DNA of 35,867 nucleotides, taken from positions 1 to 35,867 of the forward strand of contig QHVJ01000015.1 in NCBI GenBank assembly GCA_003222275.1, read 5' to 3'. Within the stretch, counting starts at the first letter, position 1, and the number at the start of each line of letters is the position of its first letter. The translations under genes were made by a program, and so were the position numbers. Positions 6,105 to 15,591 of this stretch are shown piece after piece. This stretch comes from Acidobacteriota bacterium. GTDB taxonomy: Bacteria; Acidobacteriota; Vicinamibacteria; Fen-336. The notes below the pieces were generated by a model. It was not told the DNA's origin, ran no database searches, and saw only the letters and a list, made by a program, of their open reading frames with translations.

Positions 6105-7718
6105 GTGATCGGGTCGCTGGCAGCGTGCGCCGTGGCCGTGCTTCTTGCCGCGGCGGATCCCACCGTTCGCAGCATCGAGGTCCGCGGCGCCACCGCCTAC
6201 GACCTCAAGGCCATCCAGCGCATCCTCCGCGTCAGTCCGGGCTCGACGTTGCGCCGCCCCGTTCCGGAGCTGGCCGATCAGCTCGAGCGGCGCTACCACA
6301 TCCTCGGCTTCCCCGCCGCGCGGGTCGAAGGCACCTTCGACCCCTCGACGGACACGCTGAGCTTCACCGTGGACGAGGGACGGCTGGGTATGGTGGCGGT
6401 GGACGGGCTGGAGGGCGACACCGAGGCCCGGGTGCTGAAGGTGCTCGACTTGCGACCGGGAAAGCCGGTCAAGGAGCGCGACGTCTCGGGCGCGCTCGCT
6501 CGGCTGGAGAAGCTCTCCGGCGGTGCGTTCGTGTCGACGGCCACGCCGCCGTACACGATCGAGCCCGGCCCGGAGGGAGCGAAGCTGACCTTGCATCTGC
6601 GCCGGCGCGCGGCCCGGCTGCAGCTCCGGCCCGGGGGTCCGGCCACCGCCTCGCTCTACAACCGCGTCGACGGCCTGAACCTCGGCGCCAGCGCACGGGT
6701 GACCCTGTTCGACCCGGTCTCCTTCGATCACGCCGAGGCCTATGGCCACATGGCGTACGGCTTCTCCTCGCACAAGGCGCGTTACGCGGTGGGCGCGCTG
6801 AAGCCGTTCGGGCCCGATCGCCAGTTCACGGTCGGTTACGAGTACCATGACCTCACCGACAACGACGACGCGTTCCGCCGACGGACCGTAGACGACCTGC
6901 CGGGATCGCGGATCTACTTCACGATCTTCGAGGACTACTACCGGCGCCGGGGCCATGAGGCCTACGCGTTCGCCCGGGCCACCTCGCGCTTCCAGGTCGG
7001 CGCGCTCTGGCGCAGCGACGATTACCGCAGCCTGCCCGTCACCGCCAACGACCAGATCCTGTTCTTCCACGACCGCACGTCGAACCCGCTGGTGACGGAA
7101 GGCCGTATGCGCTCGATCCTGGGCGTCGCCCGCTGGGCGTGGAAGCGCGACCTGTTCGGCAGCTGGTCGGAGGAGCGCGAGTCGTTCCTGCTGCGCAATC
7201 CCTACGGCACGCCCTTCGAGCGCGACCAGCAGGCCCGGGTCGAGACGAGCCTCGAGGTCGCATCGCCCGGGCTCGGCGGCGACTTCGACTTCCGGCGCTT
7301 CATCGGCCAGGCGCGCGCCGCCCGCGTCTTCTCGCCCCGCCAGGCGCTGCTGCTGCGAGGTCTCGTGGGTGTGGGCTCCGGCGAGCTTCCGGTCCAGCGC
7401 CGGTTCTACCTGGGCGGGATGGGGACGCTGCGGGGGTACTCGCTCAAGCAGTTCGCCGGCGATCACCTGGTCCTCACGACCGCCGAGTACTGGTTGTATC
7501 CGCGCTCCCCCTGGCCCGGCCTCGTCTTCTTCTATGACGGCGGCACGGCCTGGGACCGCGGCCGACCCCGTTCCGGCTGGAAGCAAGACGTGGGCGCGGG
7601 GATCGACTGGCCGGGGGGAGGCAAGGGCTACCTGCGCCTCGACGTCGGCTTTCCGCTCAACCGCGAGCCGGCCAACCGGCGGGCCTACGTGACCGGCCTC
7701 ATCCGCTTCCCGTTCTGA
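6105..7718 (+). CDS. Omp85/TamA-like outer-membrane barrel protein with POTRA domains
   Basis: A 537-residue surface-antigen (Bac_surface_Ag) protein. A signal peptide (about 1-18) is followed by two POTRA-like repeats (about 20-92, VRSIEVRGATAYDLKAIQ; and about 93-165, LGMVAVDGLEG...). A roughly 16-strand barrel region follows, ending in the terminal-Phe signature RFPF. The conserved lid-loop motif is present as GTLRGYS (R443-Y445). Two POTRAs make it shorter than BamA, which has five, so a TamA/patatin-type or specialised translocation/insertion role is more likely than the essential BamA job. The GTG start at 6105 follows AGGGA by 3 nt. The stop overlaps the ATG of the next gene (TGATG), indicating joint expression with a LolA-like periplasmic partner. 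Confidence 0.85.
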   Translation: MIGSLAACAVAVLLAAADPTVRSIEVRGATAYDLKAIQRILRVSPGSTLRRPVPELADQLERRYHILGFPAARVEGTFDPSTDTLSFTVDEGRLGMVAVDGLEGDTEARVLKVLDLRPGKPVKERDVSGALARLEKLSGGAFVSTATPPYTIEPGPEGAKLTLHLRRRAARLQLRPGGPATASLYNRVDGLNLGASARVTLFDPVSFDHAEAYGHMAYGFSSHKARYAVGALKPFGPDRQFTVGYEYHDLTDNDDAFRRRTVDDLPGSRIYFTIFEDYYRRRGHEAYAFARATSRFQVGALWRSDDYRSLPVTANDQILFFHDRTSNPLVTEGRMRSILGVARWAWKRDLFGSWSEERESFLLRNPYGTPFERDQQARVETSLEVASPGLGGDFDFRRFIGQARAARVFSPRQALLLRGLVGVGSGELPVQRRFYLGGMGTLRGYSLKQFAGDHLVLTTAEYWLYPRSPWPGLVFFYDGGTAWDRGRPRSGWKQDVGAGIDWPGGGKGYLRLDVGFPLNREPANRRAYVTGLIRFPF

Positions 7719-8525: not shown

Positions 8526-8888
8526 ATGAAGTTGGTGGTGGCGGTCGTGAGGCCGGAGAAGCTGTCCGACGTGCTGGAGGCGCTCTTCCGCGCCCAGGTG
8601 CAGGGGCTGACCATCAGCCGCGTGCAGGGCCACGGGGGCGAGATGGAGCGGGTGGAGACCTACCGCGGCACCACCGTCAAGATGGAGCTGTCGGACAAGG
8701 TCCGCGTGGAGATCGGCGTGTCGGACCATTTCGTCGAGCCCACCGTTAAGGCGATCCTGGCCGGCGGGCGCACGGGAACGGTCGGCGACGGCAAGATCTT
8801 CGTGCTTCCGGTCGAGAAGGTGTACCGGATCCGCACCGCGGAAGAGGACCGCGCCGCGGTGACGCCCGTCGGTATCCCTCCGGGCTAG
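8526..8888 (+). CDS. P-II family signalling protein (GlnB/GlnK-like), orphan
   Basis: A 120-residue P-II protein: N-terminal KLVVAVVRPEKL, a T-loop with the conserved uridylylation-type Tyr (ETYRG, Y46), the B-loop TGTVGDGKIFV and the C-loop RIRTAEED. These are the residues that bind ATP/ADP and 2-oxoglutarate in P-II trimers. The T-loop is about five residues shorter before the Tyr than in Escherichia coli GlnB, where it is Y51. Neither amtB nor glnA is adjacent, so the partner is unknown. GAGAGGAG precedes the ATG at 8526. TAGGAT at 8498-8503 could be its own weak -10. It ends tail to tail with the molybdopterin oxidoreductase gene, the two stop codons sharing the palindrome CTAG. Confidence 0.9.
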   Translation: MKLVVAVVRPEKLSDVLEALFRAQVQGLTISRVQGHGGEMERVETYRGTTVKMELSDKVRVEIGVSDHFVEPTVKAILAGGRTGTVGDGKIFVLPVEKVYRIRTAEEDRAAVTPVGIPPG

Positions 8889-11065
8889 GCGCGCTCCACG
8901 CGTACGAAGGTGTTGTAGTCCGGCTCGCGCGAAATGGCGTCCTTCTCTTCGCGCGACAGCAGCGCGTTGCCCTCCGGCCAGTGCACCTCCACGTTGCCGG
9001 GCTTGATCTCGTCGATGCGGGCGCGGCCCGCGTAGCGCCCGGCCGCGGAGACGAGGTGGATGGGCGCGCCGTCCGTGACGCCGAGCCGCGCCGCGTCCTC
9101 GCGTGAGATCAGAACGTCGGCGCGCGCCGCCCCCGTGAGCGGATCGACCTCGCGTTGAACCATCGAGTTGAACTGCTTGCCCCGCCGCGTCGAGAGGCGG
9201 AGCGAGCCCACCGGCGCCGCGCGCCCATGCGCCGCCACCACGGAGAAGTGCGCCTTGCCGTCGGGAGTGACGAAGCGCCCATCGGCGAAGAGCCTCGGTC
9301 CGCCCCACTGCACGGAATCGCCCTGCTTCGCGAGGGCCTCGATGCCGGCGTAGAGGGGCACCGCGCGGGCGATCTCCTCGCGGATGGCGGCCGAGGAGGC
9401 GAAGCGCAGCTTCTCCGCGAGCTCCGGGCGGACGCGGGCCGCCACCTCGCCGAACACTTCCCACTCCGCGCGAGCCTGGCCGATGCGGCGGCCGGGCACC
9501 TCGGGCGAGAAGATGATCCGCCGCTCGGTCGAGGTCTCGGTGCCGCCGCCCGGCGACTCGTAGCGCGTCGTCGCGGGAAAGATCACGACCGTGTCCTTCG
9601 GCGGCAGCAGCATCATCGAGGAGACGACCACGTCCTGGTGGATGCGCGTGCCGACCCGGCCGAGAGCGGTCGCGGCCGCCGCGGGGTCCGGCAGCGTCTC
9701 CAGGAAGTTCCCCCCTGTCATCCAGAAGACGTCCAGCTCGCCTCGCCACGCTCCGTCGACCATCTCCGCCGCGGTGAGGCCCGACCACGCGGGCACGTCG
9801 AACCCCCACACCTCGGCGAAGCGCGCGCGCTGAGACTCGTCGAGAGCGGGGGCGCAGCCGACCTCCGCCCCGCCCTGGACCCCGGAGTGACCGCGGATCG
9901 GCATGAGGCCGGTGTGCGGCCGGCCGACCCAGCCCCGCGCCAGGCCGACGTTGACGAGGGCCTGGATGGTCGGCACGCCGTGCGCGTGCTGGGTGAGCCC
10001 CATCGACCAGACGAAGATGCCGGTGCGCGCGCCGTTCAACATCTCGGCGAAGCGCCGCATCTCGGCGCGGGTCGTGCCGCTCTCCCGCTCGAGCTCCTCG
10101 AAGGGCGCCGCCTGCGCGGCGGCCGCGGCTTCCGCGAAGCCCGTGGTCGACTGCGCGATGAAGTCGCGGTCGACCCAGCCCTCGGCGGCCAGCACCTTGA
10201 AGACGCCCCCCAGGAACGCGAGGTCGCCGCCGGTGTCGACTGGGAACCACTCGTCCGCGAAGCGCGTGCCGAAGAGGGCCGACTCGGGCACCGACGGCAC
10301 CCAGTACCGCTTCAGCCCCGGCTCGAAGTAGGGGTTCACGACCGCGACCTTCGTGCCCCGCTGCCGCGCCTCGTAGAGGTACTTCATCGTGACCGGCTGG
10401 TTGTTGGGGGTGTTGGAGCCGAAGAAGACGATCAGGTCGGCGCCGATCCAGTCGCGGTACGAGCAGGTCGTGGCGCCATGGCCGAGCGTCTTTTTCATCG
10501 CGGAGGTGGAGGCGGCGTGGCACAGCCGGGCGGAGTTGTCGACGTGGCTCGTGCCCATGGCCCGCGCCGCCTTCTGCGCGGCGTAGTAGTTCTCGTTGAG
10601 CAGGCCCCGCGACGTCAGGTACACGGCGAATCGCTCCGGCCGTACCGCGCGGATCTTCTCCGCCGCCGAGGCGAGCGCCTCGTCCCAGGACACGACACGG
10701 AATCCCGTTTCCCCGGTGCGCCGGATCATCGGCTCCCCCAGCCGGCCCAGCTCCCGGAGCTGCCGGGACGTGAGGCCCTCGAGCCGGGAGAGATCGGCGA
10801 GCCGGCCGGGATCGAGCGCGGGCGCAGTGTTGAGCCGCATCAGCTCCAGCCGCACCATGCAGAGATGGATCCCGTCCATCGTCCAGTCCCGCAGACCCGT
10901 CGTGCCGAGGGCGCAGCCGTCGCAGACCCCGCTCTTCAGGATCCGCCAGGCGAAGGGAAGCTGGTCGCGGTTCTCCCACGCCGTGCGCGCCATCTCGAAG
11001 TAGTGGTTCGGCTTCTGCTGCGACGGATCGCGCGGGACGGCGGAGGCCCAGAGCTTGCGGTTCAA
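8885..11065 (-). CDS. FdhF/YdeP-type molybdopterin oxidoreductase
   Basis: A 726-residue member of the DMSO-reductase superfamily. The N-terminus carries CDGC (C48, C51) and a later C69, the reduced iron-sulfur pattern of the YdeP subgroup rather than the four-Cys formate dehydrogenase set. C182 in ARLCHAAST is the likely molybdenum ligand. Further motifs for bis-MGD binding include FFGSNTPNNQP, RGHSGVQGG and the C-terminal aspartate-decarboxylase-like barrel (about 600-726, GKQFNSMVQRE). No signal peptide is visible, so it should be cytosolic. YdeP relatives are linked to acid or formate stress, but the substrate is unproven. The TTG start at 11065 overlaps the amidase stop (TTGA) with no clear ribosome site, so coupling to the amidase is expected. 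Confidence 0.88.
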   Translation of the reverse strand: MNRKLWASAVPRDPSQQKPNHYFEMARTAWENRDQLPFAWRILKSGVCDGCALGTTGLRDWTMDGIHLCMVRLELMRLNTAPALDPGRLADLSRLEGLTSRQLRELGRLGEPMIRRTGETGFRVVSWDEALASAAEKIRAVRPERFAVYLTSRGLLNENYYAAQKAARAMGTSHVDNSARLCHAASTSAMKKTLGHGATTCSYRDWIGADLIVFFGSNTPNNQPVTMKYLYEARQRGTKVAVVNPYFEPGLKRYWVPSVPESALFGTRFADEWFPVDTGGDLAFLGGVFKVLAAEGWVDRDFIAQSTTGFAEAAAAAQAAPFEELERESGTTRAEMRRFAEMLNGARTGIFVWSMGLTQHAHGVPTIQALVNVGLARGWVGRPHTGLMPIRGHSGVQGGAEVGCAPALDESQRARFAEVWGFDVPAWSGLTAAEMVDGAWRGELDVFWMTGGNFLETLPDPAAAATALGRVGTRIHQDVVVSSMMLLPPKDTVVIFPATTRYESPGGGTETSTERRIIFSPEVPGRRIGQARAEWEVFGEVAARVRPELAEKLRFASSAAIREEIARAVPLYAGIEALAKQGDSVQWGGPRLFADGRFVTPDGKAHFSVVAAHGRAAPVGSLRLSTRRGKQFNSMVQREVDPLTGAARADVLISREDAARLGVTDGAPIHLVSAAGRYAGRARIDEIKPGNVEVHWPEGNALLSREEKDAISREPDYNTFVRVERA

Positions 11066-12522
11066 CCGAGTGCCGGGCGCTTCTTGTGCCAGTCGGTCGC
11101 CTGCTGATAGCGATCAGCGATGGCGATGAGGGTGGCCTCCGAGAAAGCGCGGCCGATGAGCTGCAGCGATGTCGGCAGGCCGTGCTGGCCGAAGCCGTTC
11201 GGCACGCAAAGCGCCGGAATGCCCACCAGGTTGCCGGCGGGGATCGTCGCGGGGGGCGCGGGCCGTTCGGGCGAAGGCGACGGTGGAGGCGAGGGTGACG
11301 GGGACGGGGAAGGCGGCTTGTCGAAGTCGTAGCCGATCGGCGGCGCCACCCCGAGGCGAGTGGGCGTGACCAGGGCGTCGTACCGCGAGAGCAGCGCGTC
11401 GAGCGCGGCCCGCATGGGGACGCGCGCGCGCATCGCCTCCAGGTAATCCACGGCCAGGGTCATGATGGCCGGATAGCCACCCACGCGGTCGGCCGCCGCG
11501 CGCAGCTTGCGCGTGCCTCCGCTCTCGATGAGGTCGCGGAATGCGCTCGCCCCCTCCGCGTCCACGATGATGCCGACCGCGGCGGACCACGGGAAGTCCG
11601 GGAACTCCACGTCCTCGTCGAGCTTCGCGAAGCTGCGGAGCACGTCCAGCGATCGCCGGAAGTTCTCCTTCACCTCGGGCTGGGCCCGCTCGGTCGCGTT
11701 CTTCACCACCCCGATGCGGAAGCGGCGGCGGGGCCCTCCCGCCCGCGCTCCTCGCACGGGATAGTCGAAGTCGCCCGCGCCGGTCGTGGGGTCGGCGGGA
11801 TCCTTGCCGGCGATGGCCGACAGGACGAGGCCGCAATCGTCGGCGGTCCGGCACATCGGCCCCAGCTTGTCGAGCGTCCAGCAGAGCGCCATCGCGCCAT
11901 GCCGCGACACGAGGCCGTACGTCGGGCGCAGGCCGGAGAGCCCGCAGTTCGTGGACGGGGTCATGATGGAGCCGGACGTCTCGGAGCCGATGGCGAAGGC
12001 GACGAGGCCGGCGGCGGTCGAGGCGCCGGAGCCGCTGGAGCTGCCGCCGCTCCAGTGATCGGGATTCCACGGCGAGCGACCCGGACCCGTGAAGCTGGCG
12101 TCCGGGTTGTTGTAGCCCATGCCCCCCGCCAGCTCCACCATGGCCAGCTTTCCCAGCAGCACCGCTCCCGCCTCCCGCAGGCGCTCGATGACGGTCGCGT
12201 CGTAGTCGAACACCTGGTCCCGGTACGGCTCGGCGCCCCACGTGGTCGGGATGCCCTTGGTGGCCAGGAGGTCCTTCGCGCCGAACGGGATGCCGTGGAG
12301 GGGGCCGCGATAGCGCCGCGGGACGGCCAGCTCGTGGTCCGCCTTGCGGGCCTGGGCGACGGCGAGGTCGCGGGTCACGGTCACCACCGCCCCCAGGCGA
12401 GGGCCGATCGTCTCCAACCGGCTCAGGTACGCTTCGGTCAGCTCCACCGAGGAGATCCTCCGTCTGCGCAGCATCTGGCCCAGGTCGCGCACGGACGCGA
12501 AGACCACGTCGTCGCCGATCAC
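11062..12522 (-). CDS. Amidase-signature enzyme (GatA-like), probably the second half of a Tat-exported amidase
   Basis: A 486-residue amidase-signature hydrolase with the Ser-cisSer-Lys machinery: K83 in FGAKDLL, a cis-Ser in SGGSSSGSG and nucleophile S185 in GSETSGSIMTPS (variant of GTDTGGSIR). It would hydrolyse an amide of unknown identity. A Ser/Pro low-complexity insert (PSPSPSPSPPPSPSP) sits in the C-terminal third, just before the ATIPAGNLVGIPAL segment. The 1536-residue track ORF runs far upstream; the first credible start is GTG 12522, inside a GTGA overlap with the Tat/GatC-like gene. The protein itself lacks a signal peptide while the upstream protein has one. A missing base in the C-run near 12558 would explain this, and the finding on this point gives details. 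Confidence 0.88.
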   Translation of the reverse strand: MIGDDVVFASVRDLGQMLRRRRISSVELTEAYLSRLETIGPRLGAVVTVTRDLAVAQARKADHELAVPRRYRGPLHGIPFGAKDLLATKGIPTTWGAEPYRDQVFDYDATVIERLREAGAVLLGKLAMVELAGGMGYNNPDASFTGPGRSPWNPDHWSGGSSSGSGASTAAGLVAFAIGSETSGSIMTPSTNCGLSGLRPTYGLVSRHGAMALCWTLDKLGPMCRTADDCGLVLSAIAGKDPADPTTGAGDFDYPVRGARAGGPRRRFRIGVVKNATERAQPEVKENFRRSLDVLRSFAKLDEDVEFPDFPWSAAVGIIVDAEGASAFRDLIESGGTRKLRAAADRVGGYPAIMTLAVDYLEAMRARVPMRAALDALLSRYDALVTPTRLGVAPPIGYDFDKPPSPSPSPSPPPSPSPERPAPPATIPAGNLVGIPALCVPNGFGQHGLPTSLQLIGRAFSEATLIAIADRYQQATDWHKKRPALG

Positions 12523-12890
12523 CGGCGCCTCCGCCGCACGATCGCCGGCGGCGGGGGCGGCGCCACCCGCGGACGGAAGAGGTTCACGGGCTCGTCGGCG
12601 TTGCCGAGCTTCACCGCCTTGCGCAGGCGATCGGCGGCCTGCAGGTTGTCCTCGATCCCCTTCCGGACCTCCGCGAGGTCGGCCTCCTCCAGCTGCGCGC
12701 CGTAGCGGATGCGCACCACCTCTCCGAGCGCCTGCGCGACGGGCCCGGGCGGTGACGGCGACGGCGAGGGGATCGTCGGCGTCGGAGAAGGCAGGGCCGG
12801 CGCCGGCGAGGGCGGTGCCGGCGGCGGGGACAAAGCCGTCGGCAGCAGCGGCGCGACGGCGAGCGATCGTAGGAAGCGTCGGCGGCTCAT
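12519..12890 (-). CDS. Tat-signal, GatC-like small protein preceding the amidase
   Basis: A 123-residue protein starting with a Tat signal (MSRRRFLRSLAVAPLLPTA). A Pro/Ser-rich tether follows (about 22-50, PPSPAPALPSPTPTIPSPSP), then a helical GatC-like segment (about 55-105: LEEADLAEVRKGIEDNLQAADRL...NADEPVNLFRPR) and a tail of five Pro and five Arg. The ATG at 12890 has GGAGG 5 nt upstream; the 151-residue track start is an extension. Exported amidases that I recall from other bacteria carry this segment fused to the enzyme. The Pro5/Arg5 tail looks like out-of-frame reading of a GC-rich linker, so this may be the first part of a broken or frameshifted amidase gene. Alternatively, it may be a true separate subunit. 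Confidence 0.7.
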   Translation of the reverse strand: MSRRRFLRSLAVAPLLPTALSPPPAPPSPAPALPSPTPTIPSPSPSPPGPVAQALGEVVRIRYGAQLEEADLAEVRKGIEDNLQAADRLRKAVKLGNADEPVNLFRPRVAPPPPPAIVRRRRR

Positions 12891-12915
12891 CGGACCTCCG
12901 CGGGCGGTGCGCCCT

Positions 12916-12945
12916 CTTATAGCAAGCGGGCGCCCGGAGGCACAA
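12916..12945 (-). promoter_or_regulatory. Putative promoter of the Tat-protein/amidase/YdeP operon
   Basis: On the minus strand TTGTGC (12945-12940) and TATAAG (12921-12916) are 18 nt apart, and transcription would begin near 12909. The leader would be about 20 nt and carry GGAGG. The -10 is a 5 of 6 match to TATAAT. It is divergent from the promoter of the kinase-like barrel gene. Confidence 0.5.
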
Positions 12946-12967
12946 ACCGGCCAACGTGCGCGAGGGC

Positions 12968-12996
12968 CAGACACCTTCGGTGGGGACTCCTATGAT
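12968..12996 (+). promoter_or_regulatory. Putative promoter of the kinase-like/barrel fusion gene
   Basis: CAGACA (12968-12973) and TATGAT (12991-12996) lie 17 nt apart. TATGAT is followed after 6 nt by an in-frame GTG (13003), which could serve as a leaderless start. The ATG at 13042 gives a better signal peptide. Confidence 0.45.
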
Positions 12997-13041: not shown

Positions 13042-15591
13042 ATGATCGCCAACCGGTTCCCCGGATCGCTGTTTGTCCTCGCGATCGTCGCCCTCGGCGC
13101 CGCCCCGGCCGCCGCACGGGCGGCAGAGCCGGCGCCTTCTGCGCCCGCCCGCGTGAAGGTCGTCGCCGCGCCCCGCTACAAGGCCGGCGCCATCCACAAG
13201 TTCCTGCTCGGACCGACCTACCGTCGCCTCTGGACGACCCCCGTCGAGGTGGAGGTGCTCGACCTGCGCACGTTCCACGGCGGGCTCAAGCCCGTCTCGA
13301 AGGGCGGAGGCAAGCAGACGAAGTCGCTGAAGTTCGAGAGCGCCGACGGCCGCGAGTGGCGGGTGCGCTCGGTGGACAAGAGCGCCGCGCGGGTCCTGCC
13401 GCTCGAGCTGCGGGACAGCTTCGTGGAACAGCTCGCGCAGGACCAGATCAGCGCCGCCAACCCGGCCGGTCCCCTGATCGTGGACGGCCTCAGCGAAGCG
13501 GCCGGCCTTCTCACGCTGCCTCACCGGCTCGTGGTGCTTCCCGACGACCCGCTCCTCGGCAAGTACCGCGAGGAGTTCGCGCACATGCTCGGCCTCATGG
13601 AGGAGGACCCCCGGATCGAAAGCCCGGTTACCCCCGGCTTCGAGGGCTTCACCGAGAAGCACAGCAACACGGTCGAGCTGTGGGAGCACCTCGACGCGCA
13701 TCCGGGAGAACGGGTGGACGCCCGCGCCTTCTTGGAGGCGCGGCTCTTCGACGTGTTCATCGGGGACTTCGACCGTCACGACGATCAGTGGGACTGGCTG
13801 CAGCGGCCCGGCAGTCCGACCTGGGTCCCCTACCCGAAGGACCGCGACCAGGCCTTCGCGAAGTTCGACGGCTTCATCCTGTCCCTCATCCGCCCCGCCG
13901 AGCCCAAGCTGGTGAACTTCGAGAAGCACTACTCGGACATGGTCGGGCTCACGTGGCAGGGACGTATCCTCGACCGCCGGCACCTCACCACGCTGGAATG
14001 GCCGGTGTGGCAGGAGGTCGCCGCCGAGCTGCAGGCCCGCCTCACCGATCCCGTCATCGACGCCGCGGTCAAGCGCATGCCCCCCGAGTACTACCGGATC
14101 GTGGGCCGGCAGATGGCAGCGAAGCTCAAGGCACGGCGGAACCTGCTGCCGGGGGCGGCGCGGAAGTTCTACGAGATCCTGGCGAAGGACTCCGAGGCCA
14201 TCGGCACCGACGAAGCCGACTCGGCCCAGATCCGCCGCGCCGACGATGGGCGGGTCGAGGTCACGCTCGGGGCGGCCGAGAACGTCGCGCCCTACTTCAG
14301 CCGGCGCTACGACCCCCGCGAGACCCAGGAGGTGCGCGTCTACCTCAAGGGCGGCGACGACCGGGCGGTGCGCGGGCCGGACACCGAGCGCCTGTTCGTA
14401 CGGGTGATCGGCGGGGAGGGCAACGACGTCCTCGACGATTCGAGGGGCGGCCACACCCATTTCTACGACTCGGCCGGCGAGAACCGCGTCATCCCCGGAC
14501 CCGGCACGCATTTCAGCGACGAGGCGTACGTGCGGCCGGTGGAGCGCAACGGCGATCCGGCCCGGGACTGGGGCCACATGGACCTCAAGTTCCCGTGGCT
14601 GGCGGCGGGAGCGGACCTCGGTGTCTTCCTCGGCGCGGAGTGGCAGCACACCGCGTACGGCTTCCGCAAGAATCCCTACAAGAACCGGCAGAGCCTTCGC
14701 GCGGGATACTCGACCGCGCTGCGGGGTGCGCGGGCCGAGTACCAGGGTGAGTTCATCAGCACCCACTCGAAGCAGCGCTGGCTCCTCCTCGCCCGCTACT
14801 CCGACGTCGACCTCTTCCGCTTCTACGGCTTCGGCAACGAGACCCTCGACACGGGCACCGACCGCTTCCACCAGGTGCTGATGCACGCGTACACCCTGGC
14901 CCCGGCGTTCCGCTTCGGTCCCGATGCGGTGAACATCGCGGTCGGGCCCGTGGTCCGCTTCACGTCCACGCGGCTCCAGCCGGACCGGCTCATCACGATC
15001 GCCCCGCCCTACGGCGTGGGCGACTTCGGCGAGGTGGGCGCCTCCGCCCGGTTCGTTCTCGACGGGCGGAACCGCACGAACGCTCCCAGCCGCGGCGGGC
15101 GGCTGTGGGCGGCCGGGACCTACTATCCGGCCGTCTGGAGCGTCGACAAGGGCTTTGGCGAGGTCCACGGCGAGGCCTCGACGTATCTTTCCCCTCCCCT
15201 CGTGCTCGACCCGATCCTCGCCCTGCGCGTGGGCGGCAAGCGCGTGTGGGGGCCCTACCCGTTCCAGGAGTCGGCGTTCCTCGGAGGGCTCGAGTCGGTG
15301 CGGGGCTTGCGGCCGGGGCGCTACGCCGGAGACGCCGCCGCCTACGCGAACGCCGAGCTGCGCCTCGCGCTCTTCCGCTTCCGCGCGCTCGTTCCTGCCC
15401 GCTTCGGCATCTTCGGCCTCGCCGACGCCGGCCGCGTGTGGCTCAAAGGCGAGGACTCGACGAAGATCCACACCGGCTTCGGCGGAGGGATCTGGACGGC
15501 CTTCCTGAAGCCCAACAACACGCTGAGCCTGGGCGCGGCCCACAGCGAGGGCCATCTCCGCGTTTACTTCTACGCGGGCTTTGCGTTTTAG
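13042..15591 (+). CDS. Exported kinase-like domain fused to an Omp85-type outer-membrane barrel
   Basis: An 849-residue protein. A signal peptide (about 1-28, LFVLAIVALGAAPAAARA) precedes a roughly 400-residue soluble region, then a beta barrel (about 540-849) ending in FYAGFAF with the lid-loop-like SVRGLRPGRY. The soluble region resembles atypical kinases of the HipA/FAM20/CotH type: a strand ending in K113 (VRSVDK), a helical lobe, then GDFDRHDDQW (241-250), which looks like a catalytic loop with metal ligand, and PYPKDRDQAF (264-272), a DFG-like position. The kinase assignment is inference. I recall similar N-terminal segments in long surface-antigen proteins of Bacteroidetes. No POTRA domain is evident. 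ATG 13042 is preferred to GTG 13003 because the n-region is then short and basic. Neither start has a clear ribosome site. The 960-residue track start is an extension. Confidence 0.75.
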   Translation: MIANRFPGSLFVLAIVALGAAPAAARAAEPAPSAPARVKVVAAPRYKAGAIHKFLLGPTYRRLWTTPVEVEVLDLRTFHGGLKPVSKGGGKQTKSLKFESADGREWRVRSVDKSAARVLPLELRDSFVEQLAQDQISAANPAGPLIVDGLSEAAGLLTLPHRLVVLPDDPLLGKYREEFAHMLGLMEEDPRIESPVTPGFEGFTEKHSNTVELWEHLDAHPGERVDARAFLEARLFDVFIGDFDRHDDQWDWLQRPGSPTWVPYPKDRDQAFAKFDGFILSLIRPAEPKLVNFEKHYSDMVGLTWQGRILDRRHLTTLEWPVWQEVAAELQARLTDPVIDAAVKRMPPEYYRIVGRQMAAKLKARRNLLPGAARKFYEILAKDSEAIGTDEADSAQIRRADDGRVEVTLGAAENVAPYFSRRYDPRETQEVRVYLKGGDDRAVRGPDTERLFVRVIGGEGNDVLDDSRGGHTHFYDSAGENRVIPGPGTHFSDEAYVRPVERNGDPARDWGHMDLKFPWLAAGADLGVFLGAEWQHTAYGFRKNPYKNRQSLRAGYSTALRGARAEYQGEFISTHSKQRWLLLARYSDVDLFRFYGFGNETLDTGTDRFHQVLMHAYTLAPAFRFGPDAVNIAVGPVVRFTSTRLQPDRLITIAPPYGVGDFGEVGASARFVLDGRNRTNAPSRGGRLWAAGTYYPAVWSVDKGFGEVHGEASTYLSPPLVLDPILALRVGGKRVWGPYPFQESAFLGGLESVRGLRPGRYAGDAAAYANAELRLALFRFRALVPARFGIFGLADAGRVWLKGEDSTKIHTGFGGGIWTAFLKPNNTLSLGAAHSEGHLRVYFYAGFAF

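Follow-up and report, generated by a model that had tools for sequence, protein, structure and literature searches.

A predicted exported kinase-like domain fused to an Omp85-type barrel in Acidobacteriota and its relation to HipA and CotH kinases

Introduction

Among described kinases, those most similar to the protein studied here are the HipA kinases (PF07804, PF20613), together with CtkA, and the CotH kinases (PF08757). In HipA, D309 and D332 are 23 residues apart (PMC10653801), as are D228 and D251 in CotH (PMC7821199). The present family shares with HipA and CtkA a catalytic-loop motif of the form FNxLiGNxDxHxKN, an interval of 22–23 residues to the metal aspartate, and HMM-HMM similarity over ~150 columns; it differs from them in its predicted export and barrel fusion, in carrying Q rather than N at +5 and D or N at −2, in showing no toxin–antitoxin context at the loci seen, and in falling below the Pfam cut-offs. 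With CotH it shares DRDQAF, which resembles the WDhDlaF motif, a C-lobe alignment over ~146 columns and the aspartate spacing, whereas the fusion to an Omp85 barrel and a score below the cut-off set it apart.

A second point of comparison is the 'Metallo' subfamily of Omp85 proteins, in which PF00149 was called a metalloprotease by Heinz and Lithgow (2014), in a main text where the word 'kinase' is absent (PMC4104836). A Persicobacter homologue of the present family has the same kind of architecture, and the barrel without POTRA domains is likewise shared, whereas no metallophosphatase was detected in the acidobacterial proteins. Nucleotide transporters (NTT/TLC) of free-living bacteria are also relevant: the NTT, NTT-HEAT and cNMP-binding genes at two related loci (L023, L024) match types described in the parts of that literature drawn on here, which mention no association with an exported kinase-like protein (PMC5381601).

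Here, we analyzed a 35,867-nucleotide stretch of acidobacterial DNA (the window) and one of its genes, whose product is predicted to join an exported kinase-like domain to an outer-membrane barrel. This combination, met here in soil bacteria, is surprising because kinases need ATP, which is not normally expected outside the inner membrane. How ATP crosses the inner membrane to the periplasm is listed as unknown in a review (PMC7432876).

Results

Protein architecture and predicted location

The features of the gene and its product are collected in Table 1. Comparison with a 75%-identical homologue gave dN/dS values of 0.32 for the N-terminal domain, 0.22 for the linker and 0.27 for the barrel, indicating that the gene is coding and under purifying selection. 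An earlier note, made from the window's letters, had proposed a signal peptide, a C-terminal Omp85-type barrel and three kinase-like motifs. Translation of the gene confirmed K113 in VRSVDK and GDFDRHDDQW at residues 241–250; PYPKDRDQAF is also present, at residues 263–272 rather than the 264–272 given there.

A putative signal peptide was recognized by inspection, and the barrel was matched by NCBIfam Omp85_fam over residues 671–849 (E 8e-18, below that family's strict 200-bit cut-off) and at its end by ShlB (E 4e-4). The barrel ends in a Phe and contains VRGLRPGR, a motif of the L6 type; in the Persicobacter homologue Pfam Omp85 (PF01103) scored above its cut-off. Unlike BamA and TamA, neither the window protein nor the homologues scanned gave a match to POTRA domains. 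These sequence features support export of the protein and membership of its barrel in the Omp85 superfamily. The N-terminal domains of other Omp85 proteins sit on the periplasmic face, and by this analogy the kinase-like domain is likely to lie on the periplasmic side of the outer membrane rather than at the surface.

Two further observations concern the window. The RTX nonapeptide consensus was matched once, by GGEGNDVLD (residues 457–465, window 14410–14436, + strand), which lies in the linker before the barrel and is partly conserved in homologues. A second Omp85 protein, this one with POTRA domains, is encoded upstream (6105–7718, + strand), and a P-II regulator gene lies at 8526–8888.

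Table 1. Features of the kinase-barrel gene in the window, and nucleotide-transporter neighbors of related genes
Feature	Position	Strand	Basis
CDS, 849 aa: signal peptide, kinase-like domain, beta-rich linker, Omp85-type barrel	13042..15591	+	ORF without internal stop
Putative signal peptide, residues 1–28, MIANRFPGSLFVLAIVALGAAPAAARA followed by AE...	13042..13125	+	By inspection: hydrophobic core, AxA site
Kinase-like domain, ~370 aa, about residues 31–400	13132..14241	+	HMM-HMM to HipA and CotH; blind Pfam/PDB best matches
Candidate glycine-rich loop GGL...GG.QT, residues 80–95	13279..13326	+	Conservation; aligned near HipA GAQ.K loop
K113, candidate beta3 lysine, in VRSVDK 108–113	13378..13380	+	Conserved 30/31
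D134, candidate alphaC acidic partner	13441..13443	+	Conserved 31/31; equivalence inferred
Catalytic-loop motif DVFIGDFDRHDDQW, residues 237–250 (D244 candidate base, Q249 at +5)	13750..13791	+	Aligned to HipA FNFLIGNADAHAKN and CtkA GNFDRHNGNW
DRD, residues 267–269, candidate metal site	13840..13848	+	Conservation; aligned to CotH WDhDlaF
Beta-rich linker, about residues 400–520	14239..14601	+	Position between domains
Omp85-type beta-barrel, about residues 530–849	14629..15588	+	NCBIfam Omp85_fam match
NTT neighbor in L023, L024 (same genus, counted once)	upstream, ~22-bp gap in L023	same strand	
NTT neighbor in L026	downstream	same strand	
NTT neighbor in L033/L034	both sides of gene split over two contigs		
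NTT neighbor in L175	divergent		

Relation of the N-terminal domain to kinases

In a single-sequence search, the first ~400 residues matched no curated Pfam or NCBIfam family and no solved structure. Profile searches were more informative. Against 177,635 PDB sequences, the best match, still sub-threshold, was the kinase CtkA; the alignment falls on the CtkA catalytic loop, and the E-value improved from 0.11 with a 10-sequence profile to 0.016 with 25 sequences. When 25 family members were scanned against 24,736 Pfam models, CotH was the best match (E 0.0045, 2 members). HipA_2 gave E 0.056 (2 members) and HipA_C E 0.21 (1 member); no family besides CotH and HipA_2 was hit by two or more members. 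The curated cut-offs of HipA_C and HipA_2 were not reached by any of the 25 members; the two CotH matches, for which the member table shows no cut-off, are likewise taken as sub-threshold, and the window protein itself had no CotH match.

Profile–profile comparison, the check that the earlier note had suggested for HipA and CotH, gave hhalign scores of 45.1 for the family against HipA and 38.5 against CotH, versus 38.7 for HipA against CotH. With a 15-sequence alignment both family scores were lower (41.8 and 32.2). Control alignments of APH, amidase, aminotransferase and NTT proteins scored at most 22.4, 100 shuffles each reached at most 25.4 and 23.9, and 250 unrelated single ORFs reached at most 24.1; the APH-type kinase relationship, whose score lay at background, was dropped. 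The HipA alignment runs from the N-lobe to the catalytic loop, and the CotH alignment takes in the catalytic loop, DRDQAF and the C-lobe. The K113 segment did not align cleanly with the lysine of HipA, and its structural equivalence is inferred. In the window family D244 and D267 are separated by 23 residues, the interval found in HipA and CotH. The likeness to HipA, FAM20 and CotH kinases, on which the earlier note had remarked, is supported by the blind scans, which assumed no such relation, by the HMM-HMM scores set against their controls, and by the conservation and the spacing.

The relation to HipA and CotH rests on a convergence of weak signals, none of which clears a curated cut-off by itself. 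This circumstance leaves some room for an unrelated Omp85 N-terminal domain that resembles kinases by chance or convergence, as does an AlphaFold prediction from a two-sequence alignment (the window protein and its closest homologue, L003), which had a pLDDT of 36 because of that alignment depth. Such a resemblance is quite improbable, however: independent blind best matches all fall in one kinase group, the HMM-HMM scores stand far above the controls and rise with alignment depth, and the order and spacing of the motifs match those of kinases. Taken together with the invariant residues described below, these lines of evidence make a kinase-like fold likely and catalysis plausible.

Conservation of the candidate catalytic residues

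Conservation was counted over 31–32 homologues, according to the copies covering each site. In the candidate N-lobe, K113 was found in 30/31 copies, D134 and G81 in 31/31, G89 in 30/31 and T93 in 25/30. In the candidate catalytic loop, D244 was present in 29/32 copies, R245 and H246 in 30/32 each, Q249, at the +5 position where this kinase group has a metal-binding Asn, in 30/32 (with N in the remaining two) and W250 in all 32. At the candidate metal site, D267 was present in 32/32 and D269 in 31/32. Conservation across so many homologues argues that the motifs are not chance. D242, invariant in the first 15 sequences, was considered as the catalytic base and dropped, since four further copies have N at this position, as in HipA GNxDxH.

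In every acidobacterial copy covering the sites, K113, D134, D244, H246, Q249, D267 and D269 are invariant. The Bacteroidota homologues differ: three of the four have G, S or N in place of D244, and the Parabacteroides distasonis homologue (L021, 5875–8334) has lost K113, D244, H246 and D269, so that it looks like a pseudokinase retained as a complete outer-membrane protein. In Bacteroidota the domain can therefore evidently persist without catalysis, and these degenerate copies point to an additional, non-catalytic use of the fold or to its decay there.

These copies bear directly on the possibility of a kinase-like fold without catalysis, which the earlier note had raised as a plug or substrate receptor for the barrel and which might also act as a ligand sensor. 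That reading suits the three Bacteroidota copies, and the lack of ATP expected in the periplasm also speaks for it; the acidobacterial copies do not fit it, because they keep a complete K/D/D/H/Q/D/D set that a mere scaffold would not need. We consider a pseudokinase unlikely as the general explanation of the domain, and on the strength of the intact residues catalytic activity in Acidobacteriota seems reasonably probable.

Distribution of the family

The source genome (6.76 Mb) encodes a paralogue 48% identical to the window protein, as well as a separate bona fide CotH gene. With a single-sequence query, relatives were found in 9 of 396 genomes of the phylum sample; a profile search found them in 13 of 17 genomes of the window's acidobacterial order, with up to four copies each. 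Members also occur in another two families of Acidobacteriota and among Bacteroidota, where the relatives came from plasmid records; a search of viral contigs and phage records returned none. In the Persicobacter homologue (L020), a PF00149 metallophosphatase, the kinase-like domain and the PF01103 barrel occupy one chain. PF00149 is absent from the window protein, and none was found in the long acidobacterial ORFs checked for it (L168, L171). The family is an unnamed one, and its predicted location is new for kinase-like proteins.

In the closest homologue (L003, Acidobacteria MAG AA32), an in-frame TAG at 7528–7530 apparently replaces a Glu codon. The stop sits precisely at the junction of kinase-like domain and barrel, and the halves on either side of it still look constrained; it could reflect decay, an error of assembly, or a means of releasing the domain free of its barrel.

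Gene neighborhoods and nucleotide transporters

The window copy is flanked by a divergent amidase gene upstream and by genes for a CDP-alcohol phosphatidyltransferase and then LigD downstream, a neighborhood conserved in L003 by position and sequence start. At 11065–12974 (− strand), a short Tat-signal-like ORF overlaps the amidase start by GTGA; because a similar two-ORF arrangement occurs in L003 (3940–5786), the leader appears to be encoded apart from the amidase and coupled to it in translation.

An all-against-all comparison of neighbors identified a TLC/NTT nucleotide-transporter gene (PF03219) as the most recurrent one, adjoining the kinase-barrel gene in four separate acidobacterial contexts (Table 1); in L023 and L024, NTT-HEAT and cNMP-binding genes also lie beside it. 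Assuming at most five NTT genes per genome (nine genomes counted), two neighbors and about 16 contexts, 0.03 such contexts would be expected and the probability of four or more is ~4e-8, a rough estimate because some contexts are related to one another, the contigs are fragmented, the numbers of genes rest on assumption and the link was noticed before counting. Most copies, that of the window included, have no NTT neighbor, and linkage as a general rule was dropped, as it holds in only four of about sixteen contexts. Because NTT genes repeatedly adjoin the kinase-barrel gene, they suggest a supply of ATP to the periplasm in some genomes.

The neighbors also bear on whether a kinase-fold enzyme here might perform other chemistry, namely AMPylation, glutamylation, or transfer from a non-ATP phospho-donor such as polyphosphate or a lipid pyrophosphate. 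SelO and SidJ, kinase-like families with other activities, set a precedent (PMC10870513), and lipid-phosphate genes adjoin some copies: the CDP-alcohol phosphatidyltransferase in the window, and undecaprenyl-diphosphate phosphatase and PAP2 genes in Hymenobacter. We nevertheless judge other chemistry to be rather improbable, since ordinary kinases have this catalytic set and the repeated NTT neighborhood favors ATP/ADP.

Other neighbors were recorded. Histidine kinase/response regulator pairs lie near the gene in L022, L027 and L028, and in L027 and L028 it stands beside a haem-peroxidase-like and a Na/Ca-exchanger-like gene, so named by sequence appearance. On the Hymenobacter plasmids (L019, L022), RND efflux genes precede it, and undecaprenyl-diphosphate phosphatase or PAP2 phosphatase genes are nearby.

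Discussion

On balance, the protein is probably an exported, outer-membrane-anchored kinase of a new family in the HipA/CotH/FAM20 group that phosphorylates an envelope substrate. As we picture it, the protein would be exported by Sec, after which its Omp85-type barrel would insert into the outer membrane and leave the ~370-residue domain most likely facing the periplasm. Within the domain, K113 and D134 would serve to hold ATP, the catalytic loop would be made up of D244 and Q249, and D267 and D269 would bind metal, allowing the domain to phosphorylate a protein, lipid or glycan of the envelope. The neighboring TLC/NTT-type transporter may bring in the nucleotide in several relatives.

A broader and distinctly speculative proposal, which we hold to be unlikely as a whole, is that diderms have a dedicated extracytoplasmic phosphorylation system: an inner-membrane NTT would export ATP, probably in exchange for ADP, the Omp85-anchored kinase would phosphorylate outer-membrane or periplasmic targets, and in some Bacteroidota the modification would be reversed by a metallophosphatase carried on the kinase polypeptide itself. 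If true, this system would be to bacteria what the FAM20 kinases are to the secretory pathway of eukaryotes.

Phosphorylation in the periplasm is generally considered improbable because ATP is lacking there, and a widespread exported kinase-like family makes it directly testable. With the catalytic set intact and an NTT gene sometimes adjacent, a route for ATP into the periplasm becomes testable as well. The predicted kinase also offers a possible role for a class of Omp85 proteins to which none had been assigned.
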